A DNA stretch of 64,000 bases from Odiellus spinosus (taxonomy: Eukaryota > Arthropoda > Arachnida > Opiliones > Phalangiidae), in contig OY987227.1 in NCBI GenBank assembly GCA_963920705.1, positions 12,193,602 through 12,257,601 of the forward strand, in the 5' to 3' direction. Below, piece after piece: positions 3,016 through 51,096 of this stretch; the first letter of the stretch is position 1; the number at the start of each line of letters is the position of its first letter. A program made the translations under genes and the position numbers. Under the pieces are notes generated by a model. The model was not told the DNA's origin. It did no database searches and worked only from the letters and a program-made list of their open reading frames with translations.

Positions 3016-3761
3016 AATGTGAATATTTAATTTAAACTTTTTTATTCTTATATCATAATTTAAAGTTTAATGATAATAATATAAAATTTGAAATTAGGCA
3101 TACACATTCCCGTTTCCGTGTGAAGTTACTGAACGCGTCATTCGTCAATACATTAGCGTTGTCATATTCCACTGACCATGGACAAATTACATGGTAGACG
3201 GACCCATAGCTGTGGCATGGTTGGTATCCGAAAACGTCCGTGGGGCTGCGTTGAGTTAGAGAGAGAAGAGCCAACCTCCCACTCGGGTGGAAAGGGGGAT
3301 AGGAAATTCTCGAGGTAAACTGTTGTCACGTGGTCGCTAGCCAGCGCGTCTCATAAAGGATTCGTTTTACCCACGTGACAACATTTTACCACGAAACGTC
3401 TCTACCCCCGTTCTCCCAGAGTGGGAGTTTAGGCCGACGCAGTAGGAACCGCGTCGTCCCCACATTTCTTCTCCTTGTCTAATCCTCCTTGATACAGTAA
3501 ACCCTGACTTTAACTTCTCAATCCACGGCGCTGTGAAGTTCCGAGTCCCTCTTTAGTAGCTGGTCCATGTAATGACATAATTGGTCGGTGCCAATTGTTG
3601 ACATAAAGCGGGTCGATCGCTCTTTCGGTCGTCGTTGTTTTGCGGTAGCCATTTAACATTTTTAATTTAGTGAAGTAGTTAAATATATAATCATTATAAT
3701 TAACGGGTCAAATTACTAATATTGGTTTACGATAATCTAATAATAAAAGTAAAGCTTGGAA
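3016..3761. promoter_or_regulatory. Bidirectional HBS1L/TRNAU1AP promoter interval
   Basis: These 746 bases separate the HBS1L start codon (minus) from the TRNAU1AP start codon (plus). No protein-coding exon is seen. About a third is a MITE copy (3240-3491) carrying two CACGTG E-box hexamers, and the interval is clearly more GC-rich than the surroundings. Transcription start sites cannot be placed from sequence. Confidence 0.6.
3240..3491 (-). mobile_element. MITE copy 1, one terminus missing
   Basis: This is the reverse complement of the intact copy at 49799-50079, nearly identical over its whole length. Its right end carries the terminal inverted repeat (ends TCTAATCCTCCTTG). Its left end begins at GTGGGGCTGCGTTG, so the outer ~28 bases of that terminus are gone. 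Internally TTGTCACGTGG and CCACGTGACAA form an inverted pair. It sits in the shared promoter of HBS1L and TRNAU1AP. Confidence 0.9.
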
Positions 3762-26270: not shown

Positions 26271-27316
26271 GGAGCTACGAAACTCTTGGAACAAGGGCTA
26301 CGCCATCTTTTTCATCATTCTTCTTTGGCTAGGGCTAGCGAGGGAAGTGAACACGTTTTCGGAAGTTTCTATATTATTTTGTTTTTTAAAACTTTAAAAG
26401 GGAAATTTGTGGAAAATATCTTGTTAGATTATAAGTTAGAGCTAGTAAGATTTAAATTTATTTTCCTTCATATAATAAACGTGATTTTTTGACCTAAATC
26501 TATAAATTAAAATTATAATAATTTACCCGCAAAGGCTTAGCTTTATCGTCTATTCGAGTTTCGTCGATTCGGCCCTGTACCTTTATTGCTCATAATATAT
26601 TTTCTCAATAATCACTCTATAAAGGTATAGTAAGAAGGCGAAATGACTATTAACTTAGAAATATTTTAAATTATAAAGGAAAAAATAGTTTTTTCATGTC
26701 TTGAATCCTCTGGTTTAAGTTAACCCTTGCCCCTTGGTCACGATTCACGAAGCTTTAAAACGTGGGCTGGCCCGGCTGGGCCTTTGCGAGTTGTTTCTCT
26801 TTACAAAATAACTATCACATTCACATAGGATTAACACAAATATAAAATAGGTAGAATTAAAATATATTTGTTAATACAAAAATGGTAATTAAATGATATT
26901 TTCCATGTATATGAAAATGCCCATAAGGGGAGATTTCCGTTAACCGACCCCCCACTAAATAACGATGGTTATAGACTATTTAGGACCTGGGGAGTTCAGA
27001 AAAAATAATAAAAAAAAAAATCTCCGACCACCCATGGACTCTAAATCTATAAGGACCAGAAAGCGCCCGCCTTCCAGCGTACAAATATTTTTTCCCGCGC
27101 CTCGAGCCGACTCTAGCGGGCTAGAGGCGCATTTTAGGAGTAGTTGAAGGCCATTAGACCACGTGACTTGGAAAATTCTAAAATGGCGACTGACTGAGGG
27201 ACTGAGATTAGTCAATGTCGGTTTTCGCTAATCATTAATTTTTATCTTAGCCTTGGTGTTAAAATTGGTCTTCATTTGGTGTATAATTATTGGTTTATAC
27301 AGCGTAGTTTTTTAAA

Positions 27317-29530
27317 ATGCCGAAAACTAAACAGTGTATGTATTCTTTGTGCCAAAATAATACATATTCTAATAAGCCTCGGACTGTGTACTCTGAGTCT
27401 AAGTTAATACCTTTCCCACGTCCTCGAAGAGAGCCCCAAAAGTGTCATCAATGGATTTCGGCTTGCGGGAGGTATGACAATCATTTCTGGATGCTGTCGA
27501 CCAATTTCCCCTGTGCACTGGAATTTACCGAGCCGAACTATTAAATCATTTTCAAACTAAGGAAAAAAGTGAAGGGTATATAAATTTATGCGATGATGCG
27601 CTTCATTCTTCAGCCTGTGAAATAATTCAAAGCCGCCTGAAAAACCAAAAAAGTAATTTAGAAACTAAAGACTTATGTGATTTTTGTACAAAGTATCGAA
27701 AAGTTCTAATGAATAGCCTTATGCGCCAAAAAAAAAACGTTCCTTCAAGACGCGGGGAAAAAAGGCTAATGTATTTACAACGGGAAGAGCTGGTAAAGAA
27801 AATTAAAATTCAAACTCAAAGTGCGATAGATCTTCGAAAAAAAGTGAAACACGTCAAGAGTAAGATTAAGAAGGACTTTAAGGAATCTGGCCAGTATTTT
27901 TGCGACAAAGATAGTCTATTTATATGCGAACAGCTAGAAAAGCAAAAGAAAATTTTGCCTAAAAATTCATTTAAGAGGCTTTTTGTGGAACAACAGTTAT
28001 CTATCCTAAAAACCAAGAGCAAAACCCAACGACGGTGGCATCCAAAAATTATTAAGTGGGCATTACATATGTACAAAAAATCATCGTCGACCTATAATGC
28101 TATGGTTTCCAGTGGAATGTTTGAGCTTCCTTCAAAGAGAACTTTATACAACCATAGCTCTCATGTTGGTCTTAAAGCAGGATTCTCGAAAGATAGTTTC
28201 ATTCAAGCTACCGAAATGCTCAACTCCAGTTGTTCCGAAGAACATCAGAGGTATGTGTCGGTGATCTTAGATGAAATGAAGATTAAGGAGGACATCATTT
28301 ACCGAGCGAACACGGGGGAATTGGTGGGCTTCAGTAATTTGGACAAAACTGGAAATGAAATATTAAAATTAAGAAACGAGACAACAGAACTACCAGAAGT
28401 AGCAACCCACATTCTTCAAATAATGATTAGGAGTATCACAGGAAATTTCAAGTTTCCTCTTGCTTATTTTCCGTGCAAGGATCTGAACTCTGACGGTCTA
28501 CATAGGATTGTTTCAGAAGCAATATCAAAGTTAGAATTTCACGGAATTAAAGTACTTAGTATTATAGCCGACGGAGCTAGCACGAACAGAAAGATGTATC
28601 GCAATTTTGTTTCAAATGGTTATTGCTGGAAAAATATATACGCTTGTGATGAAGAAAGGTACATTTTTTTCATATGTGATCCTCCACATGCATTGAAAAC
28701 AGCAAGAAATTGTCATAGTAACAGCAACTTTCATAGTAAAACCAAAAACCTCATTAAAAATGGTCAACCAATTCTTTGGACTCACATAGTAAATTTATAC
28801 GATTTAGACTTTACCCGAACAGTTAAACTGGTTCCGAAACTCACCAGGGATCATGTCTTTTTGGATTCTCACTCACGAATGAGAGTTAGGCTTGCGGCCC
28901 AAGTTTTTAGCGATACAGTTGCTAACGCTCTTGAATTAGAGTTTGGTGAACAATGCCGAGAAACGATAAAATTCATTCGCATAATGAATAAATTTTTTGA
29001 TTGTATGAATGTTAGAAATTTTAAAGAGGGGCTTTTCCAGCGAAACTCAAATCTGGTCCCATATAAGAGTGAAGATGATGAAAGGTTAAAGGTAAATAAG
29101 ATTTGTTAGTTTTGGTTAATATTGTGTGTATAGTTTAAGTATTTATTTTGTTTTTCAGTGGCTCGAAGGACCGTTTATTCAATATTTTCTGGATTGGCAA
29201 AAAGAAGTAGACAGTTTACCAAAATCTGTAACCACAGCTGAAAGGATTAAAATGACTTTAAGTAGAGAGACAATTGAGGGCTTATTGATGACGGCAAAGT
29301 CGGTTCCAGCAATTATAAAATTTCTAATTAAAAAAAAAGCCAAATTTGTTTTAACTAGTCACTTAAATCAAGATTGTCTAGAACAAGAATTCGGCAAGCA
29401 GCGGGGTTCTTGCGGAGGGAATACTAATCCTGATGTATTGCATTTTGCGCAAAATGTTGACCGGTTTAAAGACTTAGCCGATGTTATAAAACCTCCCAAA
29501 GAAGGAAATACGGAAGTTGAAAATGCGTAA
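27317..29530 (+). CDS. P-element/THAP9-type transposase, probably frame-disrupted
   Basis: The N-terminal exon (27317 to about 27500) encodes a THAP-like zinc finger: CMYSLC, then FPRPRREPQKCHQWISACGR. The expected second C-x2-H pair is not intact. The main frame runs from about 27506 to 29091, with a basic coiled segment and then QRRWHPKIIKWALHMYKKSS. The RNase-H-like catalytic core has YVSVILDEMKIKEDIIY, GELVGFSNLDKT, VLSIIADGAS and FFICDPPHALKTARN. A clear intron (29092-29158) joins ERLK to WLEGPFIQYFLDW. The C-terminal part has LEQEFGKQRGSCGGNTNP, the family signature with the catalytic glutamate. The THAP exon is in another frame from the core, and no simple GT-AG intron fixes this, so either a frameshift is present or a splice site was missed. 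It stops at 29530. Confidence 0.85.
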
Positions 29531-30160
29531 CATTTATATTTTAAATTCATTTACGAAGTTAACTATGGAAGTTTGAAGCCATTTATTTAACTTGGCAAAC
29601 TATCCCCGTTGGTAAAATGTTGGATTATTAAACAATTTAAATGTTGCAGAAAAATTAGTGTTTCTTATTTTTGTTTATTGGAAAATTATCACAATTTTAG
29701 GTTGAAATTTAAACATAAAAATAAAATACAACCTTATCACAATTATAAGATGCCAATAAAATTGAAACCATATCACAATTTTGCCAAGGAATCATTTTTG
29801 AGAAACATTTGTCGTGTAAAGGGAGACAACAGCCGAAACCAATTGATTCCTATGTTCGAATATATCTTATCCGCTGAAAAAATAATTTTAAAATATTAAA
29901 CTAGGAATAAATTTAAAACTTACACTGAAAGTATGTTTAACTAGCATCCCTGAAAAGTTAACTAAGAGATATCAAACTCTCTGTAGATGATTGTTAATCA
30001 AATATTCAGTGAAAATTAAAAAGTTATTCCTAGCTTAATATTGGTTTGTTAATTTTTTTATTAGTGGATTACGTATATTTAAACAATAAGGAATCCATAA
30101 AAAATCTCGTGTTTCAGGTTGCATTCTTCCTTTAAACCAAAACTATAATTTTTGAGGAAC
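29531..30160. other. Interval between convergent transposon genes
   Basis: This is an AT-rich 630-base stretch with an open frame at 29609-29899 (plus) that has no recognisable features; repeated TATCACAATT words occur near 29683-29780. It most likely holds the two 3' UTRs. Confidence 0.5.
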
Positions 30161-31944
30161 TTAAACCAAAAATATATCACCACTGCTATCGTGCATTATA
30201 CCTTTTACTTTAAGAGGTAATGAAAAATCTTTGACTAGTGTGTTTTCATTAGAAGTAGATTTTTTATCAGAGAGTTTCCTTCCCTTGATTTCTTTTAAAC
30301 CTTTACGTAGGCTTGTCTGGGCTTTCTCATTTGCCTTCTTTTTTCCAAAATACTTGGCGCGCAAAAAGAGCTGCAAACCCTTTCCCCTTAGCCTTAAATA
30401 AATTTCGATTAATGTTTTTAAAATTGACCCTATCTTGTCATTTGGCACTTGAGAGTGTTCGAACAGAGAATTCCACTGGTAAATTATCTTCTGATTTTTC
30501 ATAACTTCATCCCTAGCATTACTCATTCTATTTAAATTTTCTTTAAGTAGGGCTGTACCATTGTAAAAAACATCTACAATTTGGTCCACCATTTGGAAAA
30601 AAATAAAAGTTTCCTTTCGTACGTAGAGTAGGCCACCCCTGTTGTTAGCCGTTACCCAATTTACAATATTCAGGTCTGGCAGTTCTTGGTTCAAATACTT
30701 TTTAATGTCTTCCTCAGAGCCTTTGATTGCAAGAATATTAAGGATATCATATTTTTTGGAGAGGCTTCTGGACGTTGAATACACAGTGTATCCAGACACG
30801 TAATAAAGAATCTGAATCTGACGAACTGTTGGCTTTAGGGTATCAGTATTAGAGCATGGTACACCAATATTTTTACTTGACTTCGCCCCAATTTCCACTG
30901 CATTTTTCTCAACATATAATTCTAATTCATTAAGAATATGACGAAGAAGTTCTGCCGCGCAATATTTTTTTTCATATTGACTAATGGTGAGGAATATCTG
31001 AAATTGAGAGAATATATTAATTTAGGGTTTAGAAGAAACAAAAATTGAATTTAAAAATAATTACAGGAGGAGCGAATGAAGATAAATAAATGACTGTTTC
31101 TTCTATTATATCCTCGTTAGATTGAAGCAATTGGGCCTCCTTCCAGAAACCTTTACTTGGTTTTAGAGTTACGCAACTCAGAGCTTCGTAACCGTTTCTC
31201 CAGGGTTGAATATTGTTGTTTGGCAATTCTTGTAATAAGACATTTAATTCCGAATATTTTGAGCTGTCCCCTAAATTTGACAACTCTTTAACACTTTTAA
31301 TAAGAATATCAGAAAACTCTAGTTCAGTAATTTCTGTAAAAGAGAAACAAACAGATTCAATTATTTAATAATTTTAATTGACACTTACGACCTGTTAATA
31401 TAATTCATACTTGATTGAGGTGCTTCGTTTTTCTTTGGTTTCTTTTTTAATGGTAATTTTGTTTCTATTGTGGATTTACTTACAAGTAAATAGGGCTGAC
31501 TAATTGACAATTTTGTTGGTTCAATTTCTTCTATTAAAGATTGATTAACGACCACATGTAAATCCACATACGGCTCTAGTATTAAAACTTCTTCCGCTTC
31601 TTTGAATATCTCGCTGCAATAAATATGATACAATATTAAAGATATGCACGATATTTAACCATTTGATTAAGCACAGCCACAGATTGTGGCATCATGCATA
31701 GTCTTGCCATAAAACTCTGATAAAACTAATCATTAACCAGGCCAAGGCTTAATTTGTTATCATCATTTTATCAATCAAGACTGCGTTATTCATTAAAAAA
31801 ACGATCTTCAAATATTTCTTATAAAATTTTAAAACGATAAAAGTGTAAAACTAACCTTTTAGCGTACAAATGTTCATGGTGAGAGTCTTTTTTCTTTCTT
31901 CGGACGTTATCGTCCACCCTAAGCGATCCAAAGACGCGCGCCAT
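30161..31944 (-). CDS. Second transposon gene, 465-residue protein, resembles transposase tail domain
   Basis: Four exons, 31856-31944, 31411-31613, 31065-31333 and 30161-30997, join in frame across GT-AG introns and give 465 residues. The start is MARVFGSLRVDDNVRRKKKD. The N-terminal half is not recognised; it has a KLPLKKKPKKNE basic stretch. The C-terminal half has ILYYVSGYTVYSTSRSLSK, then NRGGLLYVRKETFIFFQMVD, then a helical region and a Lys-rich tail. This order (YVxGY segment, GGLxYxxE segment, C-terminal helices) resembles the tail domain that follows the catalytic core in many arthropod THAP9-type transposases. It lies wholly inside the transposon, convergent to the transposase, stop codons 630 bases apart. 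The open four-exon frame suggests selection until recently. Alternative: a captured host gene. Function unknown. Confidence 0.7.
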
Positions 31945-32054
31945 TTTACTTTTCTCGAAATGACCTTCGAATACTCCCACAACCGTATCGGTATTCGGGG
32001 GCTAAAAACGGGGCCGCTTTCTGGTCCTTATAGATTTAGAGTCCATGGACCACC

Positions 32055-32228
32055 GGAAGTTTGAGAAAAACGTATTTGAAAATTTGAAATTCCCATGCTA
32101 AAATCCCATAGAATGCGCCATAGGTTAGGTTGGGTTAGGTTAGGTATATTTTAGGTTGGGTTGGGTTAGAATCTATGGGATTTAACATGCAAACTTCAAA
32201 TTTTGAAATGCGTTTTTCTCAAACTTCC
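32055..32228. mobile_element. Foldback element inside the P-like right end
   Basis: Arms of about 55 bases start GGAAGTTTGAGAAAAACG on the left and are complemented on the right, ending CGTTTTTCTCAAACTTCC. The ~45-base loop is rich in GGTTAGGTTGGG words. Removing it brings the subterminal repeat close to the terminal repeat, as at the left end of the P-like element, so it inserted after that element. Confidence 0.75.
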
Positions 32229-32262
32229 GATGGTTGAAGATTTAACTCCCCAGGTCCTAATT

Positions 32263-32860
32263 AGTTCAAATTTGTGTCAATAAGAAGCTTAGAATTTAGA
32301 TTGTGTGTCAATACAGACCCATAATTCAATTTGTGTGTCAATAGGGACCCATAATTCCATTTGTGTGTCAATAAGGACCCATAATTCCGTTTGTGTGTCA
32401 ATAGGGACCCATAATTCCATTTGTGTGTCATTAGGGACCCATAATTCGATTTGTGTGTCAATAAGGACCCATAATTCGATTTGTGTGTCATTAGGGACCC
32501 ATAATTCGATTTGTGTGTCAATAAGTAGCCATAATTCGATTTGTGTGTCAATAAGAACCCATAATTCGATTTGTGTGTCAATAAGAAGCTTACAATTTAG
32601 ATTGTGTGTCAATACGGACCCGTAATTCGATTTTTGTGTCAATAAGGACCCGTAATTCGATTTGTGTGTCATTAGGGACCCATAATTCGATTTGTGTGTC
32701 AATAAGTACCCATAATTCGATTTGTGTGTCAATAAGAACCCATAATTCGATTTGTGTGTCAATAAGAACCCATAATTCGATTTGTGTGTCAATAGGGACC
32801 CATAATTCGATTTGTGTGTCAATAAGTACCCATTATTCGATTTGTGTGTCAATAAGAAGC
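32263..32860. repeat. 30-bp tandem array, about 20 units
   Basis: Units have the form ATAAGGACCCATAATTCGAT followed by TTGTGTGTCA, with variants GGGACCC, GAACCC, GTACCC and GAAGC. Two units near 32281 and 32581 are a 31-base variant with GAAGCTTACAATTTAG. Because 30 is a multiple of three, long spurious open frames run through it on both strands. The array resumes at 33918 after an inserted element. Confidence 0.95.
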
Positions 32861-33917
32861 CATAGATATCGTATATATAACTGGCTAGATACCGTATTAA
32901 ATCGAGGGAAAATACGGGTGGTATAGATAGCAGACTACGGCTATGGAGACCTACAATGCTGGGGAAAAATCAGATCAGCGCCATCTATACCCGAAAATGG
33001 AAAGCTCAAAATGCGAGAAGTTTAATTTTCCCGCTTCGGCCAGAAAATGTTTTTTTTTTTTTTTTTAATATTATTCGAAAGAAGAGAATGAAATCGGCTC
33101 AAAACGTGTTAAAAAAGTTGTTTTTTACATGATCCATCAATTTTTAAAAGGTAAATATAACATATATATTATTTAAATCAATAAATATAATTTGGTTCGC
33201 TAACCCTTGGGCTTCTCTATAATGGAATTTCAGTTTAACTCTGCTTACAATTACGATACAAGTTCTAGAACTGACTACAAGACGAGCAAAATGGGTGAAT
33301 ATTTTGACTTTGCATGACAAGGGAAGCGTAATCCTTTTCAAATAGATTCAATGTTGAAGAATAAAGTTTGAATTACCCGCGGAATAAAAAATATTTGCTT
33401 TACCGCCATCCACCATCAAGAGAGGGAAACTATTTTTGTTATTGTAACTTATGTCGTCTGAATCCAAGGTTGGCTGAATCAACAGCCTCAATCCATTTGG
33501 CATGTAATTCCGGGTTGGATATGGGAAATCTATAAATTTGCATGATATTAGTTATTAATTTACTTAATTCTTGAGTAGTTTTGTTCATACATGTGAAAAG
33601 ATATTTCTTTTCTAGTGGTTGACTTATTACGGCAATGTGAAAACGAACAGGTTTTAACCATTTTGTATTAAAAAAAAACACTTGCTTCAAAAATAGCCGA
33701 GCTTTATTTCTTATAGTTTCTTTACAAAAGAAACAAAAATTCCCGCGGGTTTTTGAAAAAGCACTTAATTAGAGGTTCCAGGTATCTAATATAGATGGCG
33801 TTGTTCAGATTTTTCCCCAGATAATAGCCGTCGTCTGCTATTTGTCCCCTCCGCGTTTTACTCCTCGGGCCTAACCCAGGGAAATGTATCTAGCCAGTTA
33901 TATATACGATATCTATG
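32861..33917. mobile_element. 1,057-bp P-like element with 32-bp TIR and 8-bp target duplication
   Basis: Perfect inverted termini of 32 bases begin CATAGATATCGTATATATAA at both ends. Further inward, TAGCAGAC-ACGGCTAT and CTGGGGAAAAATC blocks also pair in inverted order within about 130 bases. The flanks are TAAGAAGC on both sides (32853-32860 and 33918-33925), a perfect 8-bp target duplication. The 31-32-bp TIR and 8-bp duplication fit P elements. An internal minus-strand frame (33439-33690) contains a THAP-like segment. The element is too short to encode a full transposase, so it is non-autonomous or deleted. Confidence 0.88.
33439..33690 (-). pseudogene. THAP-domain fragment inside the 1,057-bp element
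   Basis: The 83-codon frame contains YRFPISNPELHAKWIEAVDS, which matches the central FP...KW block of THAP zinc fingers, preceded by a less typical sequence. The first cysteine pair and the final C-x2-H are not evident. It is probably a remnant of the transposase of the parental P-like element. The frame has no supported splice partners. Confidence 0.5.
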
Positions 33918-48880: not shown

Positions 48881-49793
48881 TCATGAGCTAAGAGCATTCT
48901 TCTTTTTCTTCCAAGTAGACAGCACCCTCTTCACTTCATTTGGGCACCAAGGTTGGTCAGTCAAGCCCAGAATTTCCGGGATTGAGAGATGGGCGACACT
49001 ATTCCTCCACACGATGATAGAAGGCTCCTCCAGCGACGAACATTCCAGGAGTATATGCGCTATGTTCTCAACCGGTGCACCGCATAAGCGGCATCTAGGA
49101 TCAATGCCAATGAGTTGTTCCTGGCGCGCGCCGGTTAGGAGCGAGCCAGATCTAGCTTGAAACAAAAGGCCACTATCCCAAGAGCCATCATAGCAGAGTT
49201 CGACTGCCGGGGTCAACTTTGCGCTATAATAACTAAGGCTGCGCTTTTGTAATACCATGGCATGCCAGTTTACTGTCGCTGCCTTATTCACTTCACGTGT
49301 GACCTTATTTGCCCAATCCACGTAGGAAGTTGCGCTACCTCTAGCAGATCCTCGTCCGTACGCTCGATCGAGTTGAGCGACACGCCTAGTCCACTCCGTA
49401 CTTATTCCACATTCGCGTATATATTGGTAGAGTCTCCTAGTTAGGTTACGAGGCGGCAGGAACTTCAGCCAACCCAGGTAGCATAATTTGCTTCGAGCCT
49501 CTCGAGTTCTTAGAGACGACCAGCCCATTTCTCCATCTACTGCTATGTTGGCCGCGAACGGGCCCGCGTTAAGTGCCGTTCTCCCCACTGTCCTCTGACT
49601 TCTCTCCTCTGTCCTCTGACTTCTCTATAGTGGGTTGCGAGAAGGCCAAAACTTCATTTGCGTAGGTAATGACCGGAACCCCAATAGATTTCCATAATGT
49701 TCGACCCACCGTGTATTTATTGTAAGAATTTTCCGCCATGTTACGCACCGCCCACCGAAGATTCACGCTTTTACGTTTTATGATTTTCTCCAT
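48881..49793 (-). pseudogene. LINE C-terminal region with zinc-binding motif
   Basis: Two overlapping frames: 49569-49793 (continuing the RT thumb, INTRON-free, ends in a repeat-rich KSEDRGEKSEDSGE stretch) and 48881-49588. The second has CRLCGAPVENIAHILLECSS, the C-x2-C...H-x4-C motif common after LINE reverse transcriptases. The frame change falls in a short duplicated AGTCAGAGGACAG sequence at 49590-49630, so slippage is the likely cause of the frameshift. Confidence 0.85.
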
Positions 49794-49798
49794 TTCGC

Positions 49799-50079
49799 CA
49801 AGGAGGATTAGACAAGGAGAAGAAATGTGGGGACGGCGCGGTTCCTACTGCGTCGGCCTAAACTCCCACTCTGGGAGAACGGGGGTAGAGACGTTTCGTG
49901 GTAAAATGTTGTCACGTGGGTAAAACGAATCCTTTATGAGACGCGCTAGCTAGCGACCACGTGACAACAGTTTACCTCGAGAATTTCCTATCCCCCCTTT
50001 CCACCCGAGTGGGAGGTTGGCTCTTCTCTCTCTAACTCAACGCAGCCCCACATTTCCTCTCCTTGTCTAATCCTCCTTG
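49799..50079 (+). mobile_element. 281-bp MITE inserted in the LINE, complete copy
   Basis: The terminal inverted repeats are about 34 bases with one mismatch, starting CAAGGAGGATTAGACAAGGA. The target duplication is ATTTCGC on both sides (49792-49798 and 50080-50086), 7 bases. Internal CCACGTGACAAC and GTTGTCACGTGG pair, so the element can fold. Without the element and one ATTTCGC the two LINE frames are continuous, so the insertion postdates the retrotransposon. Confidence 0.93.
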
Positions 50080-51096
50080 ATTTCGCTTAGATGATGATCT
50101 TTCGACGTGAAAGTTACTCCAAGGTAGCAAAACGATTCAGTAGGACTAAGTTTGCCTCCTTGCAAAGTATACACGGAGGAGTGGTAAGGGCTGTGAAACG
50201 ACATGGAGTGGGATTTTTCCACACTAAAAACCAGTTTCCTATTGTTACCAAAATCTGAACATATGTCCAGCATCCTTTGGAGGGATGCCTCATTATTAGC
50301 GAATAAAACTATATCATCCGCATAGAGAAGACAAGGTATTGTTAGTTTCAACTCGGCGGTAATGGGCCCCCTCAGTTCAGCCCCTACTCCAGCTTGCTCA
50401 ATCTCCCACGCTAGGTCGTCAATGAACGTTACAAAAAGCAACGGCGATAAGGGGCACCCCTGGCGCAGGCCCACATAGCTTTGCACCACCGGGCAAGTGA
50501 CGTCGTTCAACTGGAATCTGTACTCACAGGTGGAGTACAATTCCTTAATATCGGCTATCAGACAGAGTGGAATCTCTTTCTGTCTCATGACGTCCCAAAG
50601 TAGTCCCCTATCCACACTGTCATAAGCTTTCTTTATATCCAGAAACGCTACTTCAAGCCGGGTACACTGCTTATTGGCGAGTTCAATTAGGTGACTTATT
50701 ATAAACAGGTGATCAGCTATTCGTCGGTTTGGTCGGAACCCTCCCTGCGCCTCGTGTAGAGTAGAGTTCAATTCAAGATGCATCGATAACCTGTTCTTTA
50801 AGAGCATAGAGTAGAGTTTGTACATGGTAGAAGTGACAGCAATAGGGCGGAACGAGTCTAACTCAGACTCGTCCTTACCCTTGCCTTTATAGATCAGGGA
50901 GACCCGTGCCATGAGCCAATCGCGTGGGATATCATTCCTTTCTTTGATATCATTAAAAATGGCGCAAAGACATTGGCGAGCTTTAGGACCCAGACATTTC
51001 AGAGATTCACCAAAAATATCATCTAGGCCGCCTGCCTTACCTAATTTAAGCTTACTAAGACCCTGTTGTAACTCTTCCACCAGGAAAGGCTCTGAC
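50080..51096 (-). pseudogene. LINE reverse transcriptase domain, 5'-truncated
   Basis: The frame shows successive RT motifs: GKAGGLDDI, SFRPIAVTSTMYKLYSMLL, EAQGGFRPNRRIADHLFI, VAFLDIKKAYDSVDRGLLWD, GLRQGCPLSPLLFVTFIDDL and the catalytic YADD in IPCLLYADDIVLF, ending FCYLGVTFTSKD. The core is intact. It stops within the MITE at 50067, and the upstream end runs into a stop next to the inverted-repeat junction at 51096. No endonuclease domain remains. Confidence 0.92.

Follow-up and report, generated by a model that had tools for sequence, protein, structure and literature searches.

The window, a 64,000-nucleotide stretch of DNA from the arachnid Odiellus spinosus, contains a transposable element with the features of the P superfamily, in which a transposase gene on the plus strand is accompanied, within the terminal inverted repeats, by a convergent minus-strand gene of four exons and 465 residues (Table 1). 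Three further near-identical copies were found by a genome search and are named here by contig (C): the C17 copy (L021), the C18 copy (L022), and the C2 copy (L023/L024). The window copy shows 100% identity to the C17 copy over 455+4565 bp (blastn) and to the C2 copy over 454+4244+330 bp, and in both cases the matches begin and stop at 27033 and 32047. Because homology to the C17, C18, and C2 copies is confined to this interval, and because each copy has its own 7-bp duplication there—GACCACC in the window, ACTACAC in C17, GTGTGAA in C2, and TTTCAAC in C18—the 33-bp repeat is terminal. The element ends read CATGG...CCATG, and a 24-mer from the repeat has two exact matches in the window against 0.00 expected. 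The first-pass annotation had extended the element to 26980..32260 with both an outer and a 33-bp pair of repeats; the 33-bp pair stands, as terminal rather than subterminal, whereas the outer pair does not mark the ends. As ends, these 15-16-bp outer repeats (26981-26996 / 32244-32259) are ruled out by the copy matches and the 7-bp duplications at 27033/32047. The outer TAGGACC repeats would instead belong to an older foldback/MITE-like element, with exact 16-bp outer repeats, which was struck and interrupted by the P element. Two other features of the window are a 30-bp tandem satellite (18.8 copies, 32301-32864) near the insertion, and a reverse transcriptase open reading frame (50067-51095 and 48881-49624; PF00078, E 4.8e-35), probably from a non-LTR retrotransposon, close to which the segment 49799-50051 has inverted matches at 3240-3491 of 201 nt (99%) and 59 nt (100%).

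Table 1. Features of the P-superfamily element and its insertion site (positions in the window)
Feature	Position	Strand	Evidence or remark
Putative older foldback/MITE-like host element, left part	26981..27032		repeat 26981-26996/32244-32259; outside match to other copies
Target-site duplication GACCACC, left copy	27026..27032
P-superfamily element, internally deleted copy	27033..32047		5015 bp; C17 copy 5725 bp
Left terminal inverted repeat, 33 bp, CATGGACTCTAAATC...	27033..27065	+	exact complement of 32015-32047
First transposase exon up to deletion junction: ATG and first half of THAP domain	27317..27486	+	PF05485 E 2.4e-4
Junction of 710-bp internal deletion, 4-bp microhomology	27483..27486		blastn vs L021; lengths 5015 vs 5725
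Transposase exon: pre-RNase H region, RNase H N part, GTP-binding insertion domain	27487..29091	+	PF21787 E 1.2e-28, PF21788 E 7.1e-21
Last transposase exon: RNase H C part, catalytic Glu (NQDCLE)	29159..29530	+	PF21789 E 1.3e-5
Minus gene exon 4: predicted detached C-terminal domain (YxxGY, RGGL, basic tail)	30161..30997	-	hhalign to same-strand C-terminal domains E 1.1e-5
Minus gene exon 3	31065..31333	-	codon usage; conserved in L025
Minus gene exon 2	31411..31613	-	codon usage; conserved in L025
Minus gene exon 1 (start codon 31944)	31856..31944	-	codon usage; conserved in L025
Right terminal inverted repeat, 33 bp	32015..32047	-	exact complement of 27033..27065
Target-site duplication GACCACC, right copy	32048..32054
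Putative older foldback/MITE-like element, right part	32048..32259		54-bp foldback arms 32049-32102/32181-32234

Copies that are 100% identical and yet have different target-site duplications (TSDs) reveal recent mobility. Relative to the C17 copy, the window copy has lost 710 bp, comprising the latter part of the THAP domain (its second half) plus downstream coding sequence, which leaves its plus-strand gene broken; lacking this THAP coding sequence, it could move only with protein supplied by another copy. Both genes are open in the C17 copy, whose transposase has ~900 residues (the second-exon acceptor chosen being one among several possible). The C2 copy has a ~7-kb insertion inside intron 1 of the minus-strand gene, flanked by an apparent 8-bp duplication (L023 5986 / L024 6422). 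The C18 copy is 97-98% identical and, like the more distant L025 and L026, decayed, with stops in its minus-strand gene and frame breaks in the plus-strand one. TSDs are 7 bp long in all five large copies with both ends found, and CATGG or CACGG ends were seen in these five and in nine distinct copies of a MITE. This 281-bp MITE family (L009-L018, e.g., L010 1301-1581) has 98-100% identity in the pairs shown and 7-bp TSDs in 9/9 distinct full copies fetched, a tally of ten matches of which two are the same copy, with one partial MITE at C11 left out. Its 33-bp ends, CACGGACCTTCAATC, are ~76% identical to those of the P element, which suggests recent activity of a related P family.

The plus-strand protein has the hallmarks of a P-superfamily transposase. 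The THAP/P-type transposase noted in the first-pass annotation is borne out by matches to PF21787, PF21788, and PF21789—a P-type RNase H with its GTP-binding insertion domain—and to the Drosophila P transposase 6p5a (E 4.5e-19), with only half of the THAP domain left in the window copy, where the PF05485 match covers profile positions 1-44 of 87 and is under the cut-off. In the C17 copy, the complete first exon has an N-terminal THAP domain over the cut-off (PF05485, E 2.8e-9). All three catalytic acidic residues are present: the motifs VILDEMK, IADGAST, and NQDCLE align with AFDEMK, VSDLGT, and NQDIVE of 6p5a, in which the residues are named D230, D303, and E531 (PMC7776569). The terminal inverted repeats start with CA, and the TSDs are of the length found in most copies of Galileo, another member of the superfamily, rather than the 8 bp of canonical P elements. 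What is missing is the C-terminal domain (CTD). The last transposase exon, preceded by an intron at 29092-29158, aligns with 6p5a residues 495-556 (E 0.0048); alignment to the Drosophila enzyme reaches residue 556, the protein stops 48 residues past the catalytic Glu, and no CTD follows the C part of the RNase H. The L025 and L047 transposases likewise stop just past a K-x-P-K-x-G-x-T tail, and the L026 match extends to the same tail.

The minus-strand gene is a genuine, conserved coding sequence. Its first three exons encode 187 residues and its fourth the C-terminal 278; the longest open reading frame, 286 codons, compares with a maximum of 193 in 500 Markov simulations of the element. With a codon table from the plus-strand gene, the predicted frame ranks top of six in 4/4 exons, and the frame offsets between exons are those required by the splice sites. 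The product is basic (pI 9.57 for exon 4 and 10.4 for residues 371-450). Other copies, codon usage, and conservation in a sister element thus all uphold the four-exon, 465-residue gene proposed in the first-pass annotation, and the check that it proposed, whether other copies also carry the gene, has a positive outcome for C17, C18, and C2, all of which have it between the same terminal repeats. In the sister element, L025, the repeats are 29 bp long and the duplication, again of 7 bp, is CTAGACC. It too has two convergent genes, of which the minus-strand one (now with one stop, beside a frame break in the plus-strand gene) has the same four exons and three introns. Across 456 aligned residues the two minus-strand products are 57% identical; dN is 0.31, dS 1.96—near saturation—and dN/dS 0.16 (0.13 for exons 1-3 and 0.16 for exon 4), in comparison to 0.117 and 0.085 for the last two exons of the plus-strand gene. 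L026 is a third, older relic with the same two-gene layout; exon 1 is found at 51.5% identity over 33 residues in L037, L038, L039, L041, and L046, and in the deepest families (L047, L048, L049, and L042) minus-strand products are 27-48% identical to that of the window in matched pieces. This gene structure bears on the idea that trans-splicing joins both messages into one full-length transposase, the protein then not being truly split. That the two genes jointly supply all domains would fit, but each begins and ends with a start and a stop codon of its own, and the CTD-like part comes only after the conserved exons 1-3, which makes this scenario very improbable.

Sequence searches of Pfam and PDB with the minus-strand product returned no relative, whereas profile comparison with the CTDs of P transposases did. 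For that comparison we used six examples of the fused type, L051-L056, chosen for long open frames, from which CTDs were excised by eye guided by motif. In five of them, a further domain follows the RNase H on the same strand: L051 and L052 have it in a single open frame, L053 beyond one stop, and L054 and L055 in the following same-strand frame. In L056, the sixth, the 2.4 kb fetched contained no CTD. The motif order in these same-strand domains is that of minus-strand exon 4, with variation: a YxxGY-like motif (missing in the L054 piece), then RGGL, YGGL, YGGI, or YGKL, and a basic tail. When A3, the alignment of the minus-strand family (10 rows from 6 elements), was compared by hhalign with the five CTDs of L051-L055, it scored 42.7 (probability 81.8, E 1.1e-5 for one comparison). 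Controls were a maximum of 21.4 in 60 column shuffles, 12.7 for the reversed alignment, 11.4 for A3 against the GTP-binding domain of fused proteins, and 15.1 for the split-type GTP-binding domain against the CTD, with a positive control (split versus fused GTP-binding domain) at 156. Single CTDs gave P 0.03-0.05 and a pair 8e-4, so the signal grows with sampling. Sequence-profile homology was thus detected by hhalign with controls but not reached by HMMER, which with A3 found nothing significant in L051 or L052. At the level of sequence profiles, these results indicate remote homology between the last minus-strand exon and the CTD present on the same strand in other P transposases of this genome. 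An AF2 model built with the alignment is helical with a mean pLDDT of 65.9, against 34.3 without the alignment, and its two 3-residue strands are both in a low-confidence tail; structural comparison of this model (mean pLDDT 65.9) gave only low-Z helical matches that included no P transposase, 6p5a being absent. In an unrooted maximum-likelihood tree of 12 GTP-binding domains, the split types (L021, L025, L047, L048, and L049) are separated from L056 and the fused types by a branch with a bootstrap of only 65, which is compatible with one origin for the split types.

The pairing of the two genes recurs in related elements across the genome. The 443-Mb genome is rich in P elements, with at least 150 P-type RNase H (PF21787) matches in the scored part of 386 candidates, many of them in long open frames and some being pieces of one copy. 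With the exon 4 protein as query, 51 matches (91 candidates scored) were merged to 41 places, 10 matches being dropped as second pieces of places already counted. A PF21787 match lies within 8 kb at 26 of these 41 places, and is convergent at 25, divergent at one, and on the same strand at none; the sole divergent place (C1:6299934) adjoins another convergent pair. The matched domains are 1.0-1.9 kb apart in 24 of the 25 convergent places and 6.4 kb apart in one. Equal spacings show that several of these are copies of one family, so the 25 cases are not independent events. Among the at least 150 matches scored, none lies within 8 kb of the other 15 places, at five of which (L026, L037, L038, L039, and L041) tblastn found a convergent last transposase exon. 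This brings the convergent total to 30/41, with one place beside another pair and ten without a transposase neighbor found; the flanks of four of these ten (L033, L040, L046, and L050) were examined by tblastn and contained no last transposase exon, while the other six were covered by the PF21787 matches only. Such regularity contradicts chance nesting, i.e., insertion of an unrelated P relic antisense beside a transposase. Nesting does happen here, since the window element itself is apparently nested in another repeat, but chance would hardly produce the same orientation in 25/26 places, a spacing of 1.0-1.9 kb in 24/25, no same-strand case, and the same exon layout in L025, and we give this explanation almost no credence. 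The 41 places also speak to a second possibility, that the element, like those of the Pack type, picked up a fragment of a host gene as a passenger. Uptake of host sequence by DNA transposons does occur, but the minus-strand gene is conserved with its introns, has a low dN/dS, and resembles a transposase domain. Nor was the single-copy host gene that the first-pass annotation named as evidence to the contrary seen among the 41 places, counting the ten without a neighboring transposase found, four of them with flanks examined. Capture of a passenger is therefore highly improbable.

Rather than being unrelated to the transposase, the second gene thus seems to encode one of its domains in detached form. 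Taken together, our sequence analyses make it probable that this is a P-superfamily cut-and-paste transposon whose transposase is divided between two convergent genes, both enclosed by the terminal repeats, and would act in trans. The plus-strand gene would encode the catalytic subunit—THAP domain, RNase H, and GTP-binding insertion, ending just past the catalytic Glu—and the minus-strand gene a second subunit, the C-terminal 278 residues of which would be the CTD found on the catalytic protein in other P transposases. The P transposase CTD contacts DNA and rests against the neighboring subunit (PMC7776569). This placement would allow a separate polypeptide to supply the domain to the transpososome, which makes a two-subunit transposase the most likely reading. 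With somewhat less assurance, we favor the further view that these elements form a deep P lineage with an obligate two-subunit transposase, in which the CTD was lost from the catalytic protein and now belongs to the product of the convergent gene, a separate protein that has an N-terminal region besides, and in which transpososome assembly would need the partner as in RAG1/RAG2. The same placement has another side: a free CTD could compete, and the minus-strand gene might serve for regulation instead of supplying a needed subunit, by encoding a CTD protein that restrains transposition by binding the ends or the transposase. P elements provide a precedent, making repressors from transposase fragments, with truncated products such as the KP repressor restraining transposition. 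However, in this clade no catalytic gene followed through to its end encodes a CTD with which a free one might compete, and a pair kept in deep families is better suited to a needed part than to a brake, so we consider a regulator unlikely.

A two-subunit transposase would be of interest because P elements are the textbook one-gene cut-and-paste transposon. Placement of the CTD in its own gene would demonstrate that the domain is able to act in trans, and the lineage would offer a natural two-component system for dissecting its role. The question is directly testable, given that a single genome contains several families along with very recent copies. Comparison with known systems highlights similarities and differences. 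The P elements of Drosophila, Anopheles, and zebrafish (Pdre2/THAP9) share with ours the THAP domain, the RNase H with its GTP-binding insertion, and the three catalytic acidic residues. They are also alike in their CA...TG ends and terminal inverted repeats, and in having internally deleted copies and MITE relatives. The P transposase is described as standing alone in its superfamily in its use of GTP (PMC7776569). In the parts of the literature available on these three P elements, they have one coding sequence, as the first-pass annotation had stated for canonical P elements, a CTD on the catalytic protein, and 8-bp TSDs, as reported for Anopheles (one coding sequence, 8-bp duplications; PMC1562414) and for zebrafish Pdre2 (8-bp duplications; PMC10983969). 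In contrast, here the CTD homologue is in a second, convergent gene on the opposite strand and TSDs are 7 bp. No description of a P element that has a second gene or whose CTD is split off was found in the open-access literature searched, a scope outside which most subscription journals and Repbase lie; this agrees with the earlier remark that no such arrangement was known for P elements. Galileo, a P-superfamily element of Drosophila, has 7-bp TSDs in most copies (PMC4168063), a feature in common with our element. However, its terminal inverted repeats are described as unusually long, whereas here they have 33 bp and enclose two genes. PIF/Harbinger elements differ from P in transposase superfamily and TSD, and their second protein is Myb-like. 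They resemble our element in having two open reading frames (for PIF/Pong, see PMC5543537). In RAG-like transposons (RAG1L-RAG2L), as here, a catalytic gene and a convergent partner lie between the terminal inverted repeats (PMC7204232). Our element is not one of these: its transposase has no match to RAG models and its minus-strand product none in Pfam. The elements described here would thus be a second case of a convergent catalytic and partner pair within one transposon, with the difference that, while RAG2L has Kelch and mostly PHD domains (PMC7204232), the partner here appears to hold a homologue of the transposase's own domain.
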